Below the pieces are notes generated by a model that saw only the letters and a program-made list of their open reading frames with translations, was not told where the DNA came from and ran no database searches. Made by a program: the position numbers and the translations under genes. A DNA stretch of 64,000 nucleotides from Synechococcus sp. PCC 7335 (lineage in GTDB: Bacteria; Cyanobacteriota; Cyanobacteriia; Phormidesmidales; Phormidesmidaceae), in contig NZ_DS989904.1 of NCBI RefSeq assembly GCF_000155595.1, positions 2,729,290 through 2,793,289 of the forward strand, written 5' to 3'. Positions 26,858 to 40,706 of this stretch are shown here, piece after piece (position 1 is the stretch's first letter; each line of letters starts with the position of its first letter).

Positions 26858-27093
26858 CGTTCATCCGTAAAAAATGACCATAGTCGAGCTTATCGTAGCG
26901 GCCAGCGGTCTCCACAAAATGTATCTAAAAAACATAGATTGAGTCGCGCTTTCTAATGTAGGCGATCACGCACCCGAGTCGAGGAAGATACCAATTTTGC
27001 TAAATAATCGCCTCTTCATTACATCTCCACCTTTCTTTGTTGAAATAAGCTCGGTTCACGTAAATAACTATATTCAACTAGATTCACAAAAAC

Positions 27094-34063: not shown

Positions 34064-36415
34064 TTAATCGGAACTGGTTTCTTGTAGCGCGACAGCCATC
34101 GAAGGCTCTATATTCTCCGAAATAGCAGAATCTTCTGAAGCAGCTGGCTCATCTGAAGCAGGAGGATCTGCTAAAGCAACAGAACTTTTGGAGGTCGCTG
34201 GCTCTGTCGATGATGCCGAACGATCTTCAAGAGCGCCATTGTCAGAGTGACGAGCGGTAGCCGGCTGTCTGTTTGATGCTGAATTGTTGAGAGGTGATCG
34301 CGGCGAAATGTTGGCGGCTGGCGGCTGGTAGCGCATCATATATTCGCCAACGGTATGGGGATTGTCTCTGAGTTTTGATATTGCAACAGGCCCTTTGGGC
34401 GATCGCAATGCCAATCCACGCGGCGTCACATAGCGCTCATAGGGAACTGTGTTCTCTCCAAACGCCGTGCGATAGTCATCGCTATCAATCAGCGCGTCAA
34501 CCAGGGCATAGAACCCCTGCCGACCGCAAATATCATAGTATTTGCTAGTTTCTCTGCGTCCATAAGTGGGTCGCCCTAGCAGTCGCCGATGGATAATTTC
34601 AGCGGCCTTTGTCATATAGAGATTTTCCCAGTAAGCCTGTCTGAATGATCGAGACTTCGCCAACTGTCGAACAAATTCTCGTACGGTAATCAGTCCGCCT
34701 TTAAGCTGGGTTTCAGCTGCTTGATGACGTTGGCTCCCTAGCACTTCACAGCCAAACACCTGCCGATAAGCCGCCAAAATAACCGATTCAACAGAATGTT
34801 GCCTGCTGTCAGAGCTAGGGAAAAAGCTGAGAGATTCGCTCGCTTTTGTGGGTTTGTGAGCTAGCGTCTTCAAAGAGAAAATCTGCTGAGAGATTTCGGC
34901 GTGACTTTTTCTGTGGGCGTGACCAACCAGAATCCGGCGACTGTCTTCGCTAAAGTGAACGGGCTGAGCCGCGGGATTTGTTGTTTCATGCGGAAAGATA
35001 GCGCCAAATTGAGTTTCTAGCGGATCGTTGCCCATACCGTAGGGGTGTTGATTGGGCAAAGGTTGACGGTAGCTAGCAAAGGCGGTGACAAACTGCGGTA
35101 CCTTGCGAGCCGGCGCGCTGTACTTGAACAGATCTAGCTGGGGGCCCCAGTTTCGACAGGCTTGAGCTTCTATGCCTAGACCGCGTATGTACGGTACAGT
35201 TTCTGCGCCAAAGTAGTCAGCGTACTCTTGAGAGCTGACTAGCGCATCTACCAGCGCCGAGAACCCCTGATCAGCAACTAGCTCAAAGTATCGCTGAAAC
35301 TCTTCCATACAGCTTAGCCCTCGCCCAAGGAAGTGGCGGCAGGCTAGCTCAATGGACCGGCTAATCATGTATGGCTCGTAGAATAATTGCCGATAGAGGC
35401 GCGATTTGCCCAACTGCCGAATGAACAGTTCCATTGATCCGTCTTCGCCTTTGAGCTGAGAAATGGGCTGAGTTAGTTCGGCTGTACCCAGACCGCTAAT
35501 ATCTCGCTCAAAGACTTGTCGGTAGGCAGCTCTAATCACCGCATCTTTCTCACTATCGGGTAGCGTAGGCTTCATTACCCATCTAGGAATGGCGCACCCG
35601 CTATCTTCATAGCTTTCTGGAAAGCTAAGGCCCTGATCGTGTTTTGAGACGCCAGTGCGGTATCGATCTGAGGGTTTTTCTACCTGATAGTCGGCAATCA
35701 ACACATCAAAATATCGCCTGACTAGTGCAGCAGCGGCTGAATCTACTGGAAAAAAAGAAAGCGATTTCCACTGCATTTCTTGCAGCGCCACTGTCGTTGC
35801 TACGGTCACATCTTCAGGAATGATTCCCCGCAGTCCCCGCGTGTTGACCGTGATAATACTCGTATCACCGGCCACAACGGCATAAGTGATATATCGCAAA
35901 AACCAGCCTAGATCGCGCATAGAGCGCTTCATCCGCACTGCGCCATAGTCCGCAATATTGATTGCCTGAAAGCGGCTGGGCACGCTGGGCTTTCCACTAA
36001 AGAATAATCCCTTTAACCAGGCTACTGGGTTAGTGATAGAACTCGACGAATTTTGGACGCTATGTCCATTGCCCGTTTGGCGTCTAGATTTTGGTGAGAG
36101 ATAGTCTTCTGCCACAAAGTATCCAGATCCTGGCATGCCGACCAATTCCTCTGGCTGTTCAAAATAGGCCATCGGATTGCCGCCGACAAAGATGCGTTTG
36201 CCGCCAGCTGCCACAATTTCGTTCGCGTGCTGGGCCAGTGTTTGGGCAATTTCTAGGCGCTGCAGTCCTGTTCTTAAAAAGGTTGAGAGCGTCTGCATTT
36301 CGCTATGGTTGGGATAGCGATCGCGCTGATGTGCTCCATTGATCACAGCGGTAGGTACTGTGTGGTACTGCTGCGGATGCACAACCGGGCTCCCTCCATT
36401 AGTTCGATCGGTCAT
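34064..36415 (-). CDS. apcE2: Far-red phycobilisome core-membrane linker ApcE2
   Basis: 783 residues from ATG 36415 (GGAG six bases upstream; the longer frame begins at a TTG). Residues about 1-230 form an alpha-phycobiliprotein-like domain with an inserted PB-loop. The chromophore site reads GLRGIIPEDVTVATTV, where FaRLiP ApcE2 proteins have VIPEDV in place of the bilin Cys, so pigment is held noncovalently and red-shifted. Two linker repeats follow (AVIRAAYRQVFERDISG near residue 270 and SVILAAYRQVFGCEVLG near 545). That number implies a small bicylindrical core. The last 80 residues are Ser/Ala/Pro/Glu-rich. It joins the core to PSII as terminal emitter. Tandem copies of TTTATTTGGACTTGG lie at the start region. 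Confidence 0.9.
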   Translation of the reverse strand: MTDRTNGGSPVVHPQQYHTVPTAVINGAHQRDRYPNHSEMQTLSTFLRTGLQRLEIAQTLAQHANEIVAAGGKRIFVGGNPMAYFEQPEELVGMPGSGYFVAEDYLSPKSRRQTGNGHSVQNSSSSITNPVAWLKGLFFSGKPSVPSRFQAINIADYGAVRMKRSMRDLGWFLRYITYAVVAGDTSIITVNTRGLRGIIPEDVTVATTVALQEMQWKSLSFFPVDSAAAALVRRYFDVLIADYQVEKPSDRYRTGVSKHDQGLSFPESYEDSGCAIPRWVMKPTLPDSEKDAVIRAAYRQVFERDISGLGTAELTQPISQLKGEDGSMELFIRQLGKSRLYRQLFYEPYMISRSIELACRHFLGRGLSCMEEFQRYFELVADQGFSALVDALVSSQEYADYFGAETVPYIRGLGIEAQACRNWGPQLDLFKYSAPARKVPQFVTAFASYRQPLPNQHPYGMGNDPLETQFGAIFPHETTNPAAQPVHFSEDSRRILVGHAHRKSHAEISQQIFSLKTLAHKPTKASESLSFFPSSDSRQHSVESVILAAYRQVFGCEVLGSQRHQAAETQLKGGLITVREFVRQLAKSRSFRQAYWENLYMTKAAEIIHRRLLGRPTYGRRETSKYYDICGRQGFYALVDALIDSDDYRTAFGENTVPYERYVTPRGLALRSPKGPVAISKLRDNPHTVGEYMMRYQPPAANISPRSPLNNSASNRQPATARHSDNGALEDRSASSTEPATSKSSVALADPPASDEPAASEDSAISENIEPSMAVALQETSSD

Positions 36416-36461
36416 AGCGGTCTCCAAGTCCAAATAAACCAAGTCCAAATAAATTCAATGC

Positions 36462-37626: not shown

Positions 37627-38103
37627 CTACGACAAAGACTGAATAATCAGATCGAAATAGGCGGCGACCTCTTGAGCATCTTCATCACTCAAAACAGCCA
37701 TCGCCTCTTCCTTTAGACAACGCATGCACTCAGCGATATTTCTAATCGGAATTTCCAAGTTGTTGTACATTTCCTTGATACCGACTGTACCGATATCTTC
37801 TAGCGGGCGCTCGCTACCAGCTAATATAGAATAGGCAATTAAACGAACATACCAGCCTTGATCGCGCTGACAGGATGCGGTTTTTCGATCAACGCCACTG
37901 TTGCTAGGCGTATTCGGACAGCGCTCCCAAAACTTCTGACTGCCATTTTGGACAATTCTCTCCTCATTAGCCGCTAAAGCTTTGGCAATTCGAACCCGCT
38001 GCTCTCCGGTTTTGACAAAGTCTTGGAAAATTCTCAACTCTTTGGGCGCAGGATATCGAGCTTCGCTGTCTGCGCTCAAAATTAGTTCTGTGACTAGGCT
38101 CAT
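37627..38103 (-). CDS. apcD2: Far-red allophycocyanin alpha-type subunit, first gene of the operon
   Basis: 158 residues from ATG 38103 (MSLVTELILSADSEARYP). The bilin Cys is present in TASCQRDQGWYVRLIAYS; the loop before it is NTPSNSGVDRK. It is closest in look to the LoLiP-type ApcD at 60560-61033 (shared TPSNSG, CQRDQGWY(I/V)RL, and PLEDIG). It is the promoter-proximal gene of the nine-gene minus-strand run apcD-apcB-apcD-apcE2-apcD-psbD-psbC-psbB-psbH. Naming as D2 is by gene order only. Confidence 0.85.
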   Translation of the reverse strand: MSLVTELILSADSEARYPAPKELRIFQDFVKTGEQRVRIAKALAANEERIVQNGSQKFWERCPNTPSNSGVDRKTASCQRDQGWYVRLIAYSILAGSERPLEDIGTVGIKEMYNNLEIPIRNIAECMRCLKEEAMAVLSDEDAQEVAAYFDLIIQSLS

Positions 38104-38523
38104 AGTACTGGTTCTCACTACTCAAAGGGGCTAAAACAAAACTTCTTCAACTGATTCTTCAGCTATTTCTTCAACTGGGGTTTCTTTAGTTGTGAGGAAG
38201 TTGATATCACCATAAGGAATAAAGATGGAGAACTTGTGAAAACCAATCAGCTTTAGACCACAATATTTCCTTTCTTTCAAAACTTTGGCTGCGAATCTAT
38301 CGTTTCGCAATTTGAACCTATGGTTTTACTCGTAGTTTCATAAGTTCTTCAGAAGTCCTCAGTAAACTACAACACAGTAATGAGCGCTTCACGGCATTTC
38401 CAATGACATTTTATAAGGCAGCCTGTTAGAGAGCTTAGTGGATGCCTAGATTGAATGCCTAGAGGAAATCGCTTTGAAATAGAGCTGCATGAGGAATAGA
38501 TAAGTTCTTTATCTGAATTGAAG
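38104..38523. promoter_or_regulatory. Divergent promoter region between the far-red operon and the psbO-psbF-nblA-psbV operon
   Basis: 420 bp separate the starts of apcD2 (minus) and psbO (plus), so promoters of both operons must lie here. The part next to apcD2 contains a run of CTTC-rich direct repeats (TTCTTCAACTG twice within 38142-38180), and both flanks are AT-rich. No operator was identified with confidence. A shared control region would explain co-regulation of the two operons. Confidence 0.55.
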
Positions 38524-39363
38524 ATGATATATAAGACTTTGATCGCAACTGTTCTGGTATTGACTTTAGGACTGCTAACAGCCTGTAGCGGTACAAAGAT
38601 AGCAGGAGACTCGCTTACCTACGATGACATCCGAGGCAGTGGGCTAGCCAACGATTGTCCAGCACTGACGGGGACCAATATGGACGCTATTCCCTTAGAA
38701 GGTAGCCAACCCTATCAGATTAGATCGCTGTGCCTACAGCCCCAAACGTTCCTAGTCGAGACGTTTCCATCCGTAAATGGTCAGCTGAAGAAACAGGCAG
38801 GTAGATTTGTAGAAGGTAAGCTACTGACTCGTTCTAGTTTCACACTCGATCAGGTAAGTGGACAATTGCAGAAAGCGTCGAATGGTGCTCTGACGTTTGT
38901 TGAACAAGGTGGATTTGATTTTCAGCCTGTCACTGTTCAAATTCCTAATGGTGATCGCGTGCCCTTACTTTTCACTGTCAAAGGACTCGTTGCTAAAACA
39001 GCTGAAGCAATAGATACAATTAGGCCCTCTACTCGATTTTCTGGCAGTTTTGACGTGCCGCCCTATCGCACCTCTAGCTTTATTGATCCTAAAGGTCGGG
39101 GGTTAGCAGTTGGCTACGATGCGGCAGTTGGTATTCCGATTCAGGCTGATAGGGAAGCCTTTTCTCGTCAAAACAACAAGTCTTTCAAGGTGGGAACAGG
39201 AAACATTGTTTTGCAAGTAGATCGAGTCAATCAATCGACAGGAGAAATCTCAGGTTCGTTTGAAAGTCAGCAGCCGTCTGATACAGACTTTGGCTCTAAG
39301 CCGGCGATGACTGTGAAAATACTTGGTCAGTTCTACAGCCGAATTACACCGGAGATTGCTTGA
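38524..39363 (+). CDS. psbO: Photosystem II manganese-stabilising protein PsbO, divergent paralogue
   Basis: 279 residues from ATG 38524 (a TTG two codons earlier is less likely). A signal segment ends GLLTACSG, a lipobox-like sequence also seen in some cyanobacterial PsbO proteins. The core is clear: LTYDDIRGSGLANDCP, SLCLQPQTFLVET (the conserved disulphide Cys pair), GFDFQPVTVQIPNGDRVPLL, PKGRGLAVGYDAAVG and the closing SGSFESQQPSDTDFG. The segment normally reading KEEPxNKRQ is replaced by VETFPSVNGQLKKQ, and loops differ, so this is a divergent copy. It caps the oxygen-evolving cluster in the thylakoid lumen. It is the first gene of a plus-strand operon with psbF, nblA and psbV, divergent from the far-red cluster. 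Confidence 0.9.
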   Translation: MIYKTLIATVLVLTLGLLTACSGTKIAGDSLTYDDIRGSGLANDCPALTGTNMDAIPLEGSQPYQIRSLCLQPQTFLVETFPSVNGQLKKQAGRFVEGKLLTRSSFTLDQVSGQLQKASNGALTFVEQGGFDFQPVTVQIPNGDRVPLLFTVKGLVAKTAEAIDTIRPSTRFSGSFDVPPYRTSSFIDPKGRGLAVGYDAAVGIPIQADREAFSRQNNKSFKVGTGNIVLQVDRVNQSTGEISGSFESQQPSDTDFGSKPAMTVKILGQFYSRITPEIA

Positions 39364-39423
39364 ACATAACGCTTTTTAGTTTGACTTTAGTTTAGTTTGA
39401 CTTTAGTAAGGAGGACTTGAATT

Positions 39424-39558
39424 GTGACAAACATCGGGCGCGAACAGCCGATTTCCTATCCGATCTTCACCATTCGGTGGCTAGCCATCCATGCACTAGC
39501 GATTCCATCTGTATTTTTCTTGGGATCTATCGCTGCTATGCAATTCATCCAAAGGTAG
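39424..39558 (+). CDS. psbF: Cytochrome b559 beta subunit PsbF (44 codons)
   Basis: 44 residues starting at GTG 39424, with a strong AAGGAGG about 9 nt upstream. The sequence [20 protein letters not shown] followed by [16 protein letters not shown] is unmistakable PsbF. The heme-ligating His lies in WLAIHALA, then the single membrane span, and the C-terminal FIQR. It is too short for ordinary gene calls and lies inside a longer unrelated frame. PsbF normally sits in psbEFLJ; here no psbE, psbL or psbJ is adjacent. It is wedged between psbO and nblA, so it is very likely a second copy. It would pair with the PsbE made elsewhere. Confidence 0.92.
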
Positions 39559-39581
39559 TTACTTATCGTAAGAGACATCAC

Positions 39582-39803
39582 ATGAACATCCTCGGCCAAC
39601 TCAATTTAGAGCAAGAGCAAGAGCTGCAAAGAGTAAAGGACAAAACTCAGGATCTATCGCTAGAGCAGACTCAATCATACCTTGTTGAACTTATGCGACA
39701 GATAATCGTTCGAGATAACTTGATCAATCATTTGCTGACGGTCACTAACGTTCCTCAAGAGCAATACTCTCGATCTATTCTGTTGCAATCAAAGTCTTCT
39801 TAA
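39582..39803 (+). CDS. nblA: NblA-family phycobilisome degradation adaptor
   Basis: 73 residues from ATG 39582; reading the same frame further upstream would run through psbF and has no meaning. The NblA pattern is visible: LNLEQEQELQRVKDKTQDLS, then the family's LSLEQTQSYLVELMRQIIVR (compare the usual SREQAQEFLVELYEQMMVRE), and DNLINHLLTV. NblA binds phycobiliproteins and hands them to Clp protease when antennae must be dismantled. It lies 23 bp after psbF and 7 bp before psbV, so it is translated from the same message as PSII subunits. Recognition is by pattern; a C-terminal extension of about 15 residues is unusual. Confidence 0.78.
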   Translation: MNILGQLNLEQEQELQRVKDKTQDLSLEQTQSYLVELMRQIIVRDNLINHLLTVTNVPQEQYSRSILLQSKSS

Positions 39804-39810
39804 TAAAACG

Positions 39811-40335
39811 ATGGGTACTATGATTCACATTCTGAAAAGTATTTTGACCAAAGCATTATCGATTTACATCTGTTTGACGATTGCAATCCTGACATTCTCG
39901 GTGATGCAAAGTGCGATCGCTAGTGAAATTGATCCTGCCAGCCGCACGGTTTCTCTCAATGAAACCGGGGAGCAAGTCACCTTTAGCACTCGTCAACTGA
40001 TGCAGGGACAGCGTAAGTTCAATGGTAGCTGCGCTCAGTGCCATATAGACGGTGCCTCAAAAACTAACCCAGACGTCGATCTAGGGCTAGAGACTTTAGC
40101 GAATGCAACCCCAGCTCGCGATAGCGTCGAAGCCATTGTCGACTATCTACACGATCCAACCACCTACGATGGATTAAGATCGCTTGCTGAACTTCATCCT
40201 TCAACAATCCGAGCCGACTTGTTTCCTCGCATGAGAGATCTAGGCGACGATGATTTGAGTGCGATCGCAGGCTACATTTTGGCCCAACCAAACATCATCG
40301 GCGATCAGTGGGCTGGGGGGAAACCCAAAAGGTAA
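39811..40335 (+). CDS. psbV: Cytochrome c550 (PsbV) paralogue
   Basis: 174 residues; start 39811 or 39820. A signal sequence is followed by cleavage near QSAIASEID. The heme site CAQCHIDG, KTNPDVDLGLETLANATPAR, DYLHDPTTYDGL, and the second heme ligand His in ELHPSTI all match PsbV, as does the end DLSAIAGYILAQPNIIGDQW. Ordinary PsbV ends in a Tyr-Tyr tail (GGGKVYY) near the Mn cluster; this one ends GGKPKR. It binds the lumenal face of PSII beside PsbO. Last gene of the psbO-psbF-nblA-psbV operon. Confidence 0.9.
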   Translation: MGTMIHILKSILTKALSIYICLTIAILTFSVMQSAIASEIDPASRTVSLNETGEQVTFSTRQLMQGQRKFNGSCAQCHIDGASKTNPDVDLGLETLANATPARDSVEAIVDYLHDPTTYDGLRSLAELHPSTIRADLFPRMRDLGDDDLSAIAGYILAQPNIIGDQWAGGKPKR

Positions 40336-40421: not shown

Positions 40422-40452
40422 ATTAGTCAGTGACTATTGGTGACTGACTAAT
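40422..40452. repeat. Perfect hairpin between convergent psbV and hfq
   Basis: ATTAGTCAGT and ACTGACTAAT form a perfect 10-bp stem with an 11-nt spacer. Neither strand has a T-run after it, so it is not a classical intrinsic terminator. It may still mark the end of both messages. Confidence 0.5.
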
Positions 40453-40487: not shown

Positions 40488-40706
40488 TTAGGACAAGCTT
40501 TTGACATAGGCGATCGCCCCGCGCATCAAAATCGTATTTCTGCTGTCGTTTCCCTTCACGCAGATGGCATTAGCGTCCTGCCAGCTCACTACCCCGACTA
40601 CCACATCGCCAGTGACTAGCTTGACTTCAACGGTTTGCTGATCGCGGATTAGAGATTGAACCTGTCGGATGCTGGGCAGACCAGTGTCGAATGTTTTAGA
40701 AGTCAT
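40488..40706 (-). CDS. hfq: Hfq, cyanobacterial type
   Basis: 72 residues with the Sm fold: PSIRQVQSLIRDQQTVEVKL (Sm1 helix and strands), VTGDVVVGVVSWQDANAICV and RGAIAYVKSL (Sm2). The YKH-type RNA site of enterobacterial Hfq is absent, as in other cyanobacterial Hfq proteins. Those bind the type IV pilus ATPase PilB1 and are needed for motility more than for small-RNA pairing. The gene is alone and convergent with psbV. Confidence 0.88.
   Translation of the reverse strand: MTSKTFDTGLPSIRQVQSLIRDQQTVEVKLVTGDVVVGVVSWQDANAICVKGNDSRNTILMRGAIAYVKSLS

Follow-up and report, generated by a model that had tools for sequence, protein, structure and literature searches.

The psbO-psbF-nblA-psbV operon of Synechococcus sp. 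PCC 7335 as a likely lineage-specific extension of the FaRLiP cluster

In the 64-kb stretch of the Synechococcus sp. PCC 7335 genome analysed here (hereafter, the window), paralogues of psbO, psbF, nblA and psbV form an operon that is divergent from the far-red apc genes. The best explanation, which we consider likely, is that this operon is a lineage-specific extension of the FaRLiP cluster and regulon, read from a FaRLiP-type promoter, with PsbO and PsbF joining far-red PSII, since the operon is linked to FaRLiP throughout the family and shares its promoter box. The operon and a far-red-induced psbO/psbV pair are already published: in PMC8689208 (Gisriel et al.), the second psbF of PCC 7335 is described as sharing an operon with psbO1, psbV and a paralogue of nblA, and in PMC6416890 (Chen et al.), an extra psbO and psbV are reported in the FaRLiP cluster of Halomicronema hongdechloris, where their proteins increase in far-red light with the rest of the cluster. 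The unit is thus not the undescribed system that the initial annotation of this DNA had most readily seen in it. What is new here is its family-wide tie to FaRLiP and the promoter element ahead of it, both of which were directly observed, as were the gene content and orthology of the operon and the purifying selection acting on it.

The genes considered, with their surroundings, are the following:

34064..36448, - strand: apcE2, core-membrane linker of the far-red antenna (PF00427 + PF00502)
37627..38118, - strand: first gene of the far-red apc operon (phycobiliprotein; Pfam PF00502), FaRLiP marker of the survey
38524..39363, + strand: psbO (PsbO1), manganese-stabilising protein, FaRLiP-linked paralogue (Pfam PF01716, E 7e-93)
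39424..39558, + strand: psbF (PsbF2), cytochrome b559 beta paralogue without psbE (Pfam PF00283, E 2e-18)
39582..39803, + strand: nblA-family gene, accessory member of the unit (Pfam PF04485, 49.9 bits for a cut-off of 25)
39811..40335, + strand: psbV paralogue, cytochrome c550 with CxxCH (Pfam PF14495, E 2e-50)
40422..40452, + strand: hairpin (inverted repeat) located between psbV and the Hfq-like gene; may be a terminator, although it has no T-tract (fold z -2.1)

All four operon genes score above their Pfam cut-offs and are separated by gaps of 60, 23 and 7 bp, within the 7-65 bp initially given; 405 bp lie between psbO and the phycobiliprotein gene (37627-38118, - strand), and both Pfam and coordinates confirm a single unit divergent from far-red apc. 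Its start had been set at 38104, a position located inside the apc gene, and the first possible psbO start codon is in fact at 38518/38524. Ligand motifs can be read in PsbV (CAQCH, matching CxxCH) and in PsbF (WLAIH, with its His), and the operon NblA gives a weak match to solved NblA chains. The far-red run headed by the phycobiliprotein gene also holds apcE2, psbD3, psbC2 and psbB2. On the 3' side, a convergent Hfq-like gene and then dapF come next, and the operon is therefore the edge of the FaRLiP cluster. The Hfq-related protein (window 40488-40706, convergent with psbV) also adjoins the operon in LEGE 11477.

The distribution of the operon was surveyed in 390 genomes of the class, 62 of which belong to the GTDB family of PCC 7335, with the far-red apc gene as the FaRLiP marker. 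This marker is present in 13 of the 62 family genomes, and cluster-type PsbO (333-610 bits, compared to about 270-280 for the housekeeping PsbO of family members) is present in exactly the same 13 and in none of the 49 others. Under random labels, the chance of such a match is 1e-13, a figure that is only descriptive because the genes are linked and one loss would remove both. Operon-type PsbV is found in all 13 FaRLiP genomes of the family, cluster psbF in 11 (it is missing from LEGE 11477 and Vasconcelosia) and cluster nblA in five. Outside the family, neither a second PsbO in the 19 marker-bearing genomes nor any PsbO gene in 38 named FaRLiP loci was found, which points to a lineage-specific extension and not to a part of the core FaRLiP gene set.

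A comparison of gene order in other FaRLiP genomes, as had been proposed, shows that the arrangement is conserved in relatives within the family and not outside it. Wherever a family locus was read across the psbO-apc junction, the two are divergent. As to psbV, most relatives have it inverted, so that it is divergent from chlF; the order of PCC 7335, with all genes in the same direction, is also that of Phormidesmis RL_2_1 and, without psbF, of LEGE 11477. In Phormidesmis RL_2_1, which is a MAG, the C-terminus encoded by psbF is altered (L274:8329-8490), by frameshift or assembly error, and another genome (G182, L266) contains a truncated second psbO start, located 228 to 115 bp upstream of its intact psbO and 50% identical to residues 1-37.

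The 13 cluster-type PsbO form one clade (support 100/100) that excludes every housekeeping PsbO, even from the 13 genomes themselves, and the 13 cluster-type PsbV similarly form one clade (100/99), with an internal order close to that of the PsbO clade. As both clades are deep and family-wide, the duplication is neither recent nor unique to PCC 7335; an origin of psbO1 by recent duplication of the family's psbO2 was rejected, the clades being deeply separate. PsbF is too short for a tree, and its copies can be told apart only by their N-terminus (MTN, MSN or MAN as against mostly MTS). The operon genes are under purifying selection: between PCC 7335 and LEGE 11477, dN/dS is 0.04 for psbO, 0.07 for psbV and 0.26 for nblA, which is a short gene, and 0.01-0.03 for far-red apc, psbD3 and psbC2.

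A search for second copies of psbO, psbV and psbEF had been proposed in the initial annotation; these, and a second nblA, were all found elsewhere in the genome, which has 5.97 Mb in 11 contigs: housekeeping psbO2 at C1:4019021 (49% to the operon copy), housekeeping psbV at C1:4382710 (53%), housekeeping psbF1 at C1:2490666, directly after psbE (74%), and a second nblA at C1:496946. The psbO and psbV of the operon are thus not the only copies in the genome. The chlF, psaA2 and psaB2 genes of PCC 7335 are also distant, at C1:1642784-1648593, more than 1 Mb from the FaRLiP genes of the window.

The structures 8eqm and 7sa3 show far-red PSII from this strain. Over the deposited sequence, the operon PsbO is identical to chain O of 8eqm, and the operon PsbF to chain F of both 7sa3 and 8eqm; according to PMC9843442, PsbO and PsbF of the operon both outnumber their paralogues in far-red PSII. 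The PsbV chain of 8eqm is the housekeeping copy (C1:4382710) and not the operon PsbV, from which we infer that the latter is the less abundant 'PsbV2' of PMC9843442; it seems to be a minor partner of far-red PSII under the conditions studied. The replacement of the PSII donor side that had been suggested for this unit is therefore borne out for PsbO and PsbF, and not for PsbV.

When upstream regions were compared, one 15-mer was found to precede both apc and psbO in relatives. The FaRLiP promoter element, TTCATNRGTTCTTCA-N11-TAnnnT, stands ahead of chlF, psbA3 and apc operons in the FaRLiP clusters of many families, and the corresponding features of the window are:

38337..38351, + strand: FaRLiP promoter box TTCATAAGTTCTTCA of the psbO operon, top match in the 64-kb window
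38363..38368, + strand: TAAACT, -10-like element, 11 nt after the psbO box, which is the invariant spacing
38226..38240, - strand: FaRLiP promoter box TTCACAAGTTCTCCA of the divergent apc operon, second-best match in the window
38209..38214, - strand: TATGGT, -10-like element of the apc operon
27015..27029, + strand: weaker FaRLiP-like box with 2 mismatches, 64 bp before psbA3

The pattern TTCAYNRGTTCTYCA has exactly four occurrences in the 6-Mb genome, two of which lie within the 405-bp gap, one facing each operon. The exact boxes at C1:1364399 and at C1:4020486 (L298:1501), the latter about 640 bp from psbO2, have no TAnnnT at spacer 11 and were for this reason not accepted as promoters; the box near psbO2 is probably a chance occurrence. 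To guard against circularity, psbO sites and all sites of PCC 7335 were kept out of the scoring matrix, for which the apc and chlF sites of 10 other genomes were used. In a scan of the 64-kb window with this matrix, the psbO-operon box scores highest (24.5 of 24.8 bits), followed by the apc box (19.3 bits) and then by a third position (12.0 bits). In 5000 Markov shuffles of the intergenic gap, the score of the psbO box was never reached. The chlF-psaA2-psaB2 locus of PCC 7335 (C1:1.64 Mb) has its own box upstream of chlF, with one mismatch. Outside the family, 598 kb of FaRLiP loci contain 37 sites that score at least 20 bits, compared to 3 in 520 kb of control loci, and in Nostocales, Pleurocapsales and several Leptolyngbyaceae the box is found ahead of the chlF, psbA3 and apc genes of these loci. 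Of 60 strong sites, 93% have TAnnnT at spacer 11; for other spacers the proportion is 0-8%. The box is probably the binding site of the response regulator RfpB, the DNA-binding activator of the FaRLiP cluster (PMC4658448). No earlier description of it was found in the literature searched, the chlF promoter study of Liu et al. (2023, ACS Synth Biol) being outside the reach of this search.

The linkage to apcE2, psbB2, psbC2 and psbD3, the housekeeping paralogues elsewhere, the presence in the family in FaRLiP genomes only and the shared promoter all argue for a place of the operon in the FaRLiP regulon, though not in the core set common to all FaRLiP strains. Published accounts place these genes outside FaRLiP: in PMC8689208, the two psbF genes of PCC 7335 are said to be 'not modulated by FaRLiP', and in PMC9843442, none of these isoforms is said to be encoded in a FaRLiP cluster, both PsbO copies being handled as non-cluster genes. 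Together with the finding of both operon and housekeeping copies in the far-red complex, this could mean that the operon is a constitutive or stress-responsive donor-side set, which neighbours the cluster by chance and whose PsbO1 and PsbF2 enter far-red PSII only because they are the commonest copies in all light. We nevertheless consider this unlikely, in view of the presence and absence of these genes, which follow FaRLiP without exception in the family, of the near-perfect FaRLiP promoter with its correctly spaced -10 and of the far-red induction of the syntenic H. hongdechloris genes. On induction itself the reports conflict, with an increase in H. hongdechloris (PMC6416890) and no modulation of psbF in PCC 7335 (PMC8689208). 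Also against a place in the regulon are the housekeeping PsbV carried by 8eqm and the fact that, being linked, psbO and the cluster would in any case be lost together. The published placing of the PCC 7335 operon outside FaRLiP nevertheless does not fit what linkage and promoter show.

It is less probable still that the divergent region serves the apc operon only, psbO1 being read from another promoter and the psbO-side box being an architectural remnant. Such a remnant would agree with the four Nodosilinea-type genomes, which keep psbO-psbF-psbV and from which the psbO-side box is missing (a point that also weighs against a place in the regulon), and with the psbO-side -10 (TAAACT, TTGAAT), which is weaker than the apc one. 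The psbO-side box is however intact in 6 of 12 genomes and recognisable in 2 more, and in all 8 box-bearing genomes the spacing between the divergent boxes is held, at 95-96 bp in the PCC 7335 subclade and at 51-53 bp in the five others, although the surrounding sequence has diverged.

If the operon is indeed part of the FaRLiP regulon, far-red light would be sensed by the phytochrome RfpA and RfpB would act at the box, so that RfpA/RfpC/RfpB would turn on both the apc and psbO operons of PCC 7335 from their shared 405-bp region. One switch for the operon and the cluster, as first proposed, is plausible given the family-wide linkage and the shared promoter box. The presence of PsbO and PsbF in far-red PSII and the induction of the syntenic PsbO and PsbV in H. 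hongdechloris are known from published papers. PsbO1 and PsbF2 made in far-red light would assemble with the far-red D1, D2, CP43 and CP47 paralogues, and far-red PSII would thereby have a lumenal cap and a b559 subunit of its own, the operon PsbV being possibly a minor or conditional partner. A separate cap might be of use in fitting the changed lumenal surfaces of the far-red core, or in tuning back reactions. NblA proteins are phycobilisome degradation adaptors, and that of the operon may help to remove white-light phycobilisomes; as nblA is part of the locus in only five of the 13 relatives, the antenna part of the earlier claim is speculative. In one other species, nblA transcripts are reported to be up two- to threefold in far-red light (PMC6424891).

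More generally, we lean towards the view that many FaRLiP clusters have one defined promoter in common, TTCATNRGTTCTTCA-N11-TAnnnT, at which RfpB probably binds, and that one family has extended this switch to the PSII lumenal cap and cytochrome b559. If so, far-red PSII in this family would have a donor side of its own, and earlier statements placing PsbO1 and PsbF2 of PCC 7335 outside FaRLiP would have to be corrected. Reasoning on low-energy water splitting draws on the far-red PSII structures of PCC 7335; if PsbO and b559 beta are far-red-specific, comparisons with white-light PSII would have to cover the donor side and b559, beyond the pigment-binding core. The promoter element would also provide a simple sequence test of FaRLiP regulon membership in any genome, as well as a concrete candidate RfpB site. 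Outside the family, a divergent, long-branched psbV lies directly downstream of psbB2 in Aphanocapsa GSE-SYN-MK-11-07L (L271:13359-13823) and in Leptolyngbyaceae RU_5_1 (L272:5524-5991), and a PsbV of Chroococcidiopsis thermalis, encoded outside the cluster, has a white:far-red ratio of 1:18 (PMC8827656). In view of these cases, donor-side replacement may have arisen more than once.

Compared to known systems, the window shares far-red apc, psbA3, psbB2, psbC2 and psbD3 with the 21-gene FaRLiP cluster of Leptolyngbya JSC-1 (PMC4390838), whose gene list, unlike the window, contains none of psbO, psbF, psbV and nblA; the unit is thus outside this standard list, as had been remarked initially. 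Its NblA passes the Pfam cut-off for NblA adaptors but is a divergent copy alongside a housekeeping nblA elsewhere, restricted to a minority of the relatives' loci. In H. hongdechloris, psbO (XM38_010880) and psbV (XM38_010890), named FRL-PsbO and FRL-PsbV in PMC10535343, have far-red apc on one side and chlF on the other, a position shared by most relatives read, and their orthology to the operon copies is judged by this gene order; psbF and nblA are not mentioned for that cluster (PMC6416890). PCC 7335 differs from H. hongdechloris by an inverted psbV and by the relocation of chlF-psaA2-psaB2 to C1:1.64 Mb. Finally, the operon described in PMC8689208 is the same operon of the same strain, its PsbO and PsbF chains being identical to those of 8eqm/7sa3; whereas the duplication was called there relatively unique to PCC 7335 and recent, and not modulated by FaRLiP, the operon is found here to be family-wide, tied to FaRLiP and preceded by a FaRLiP promoter.
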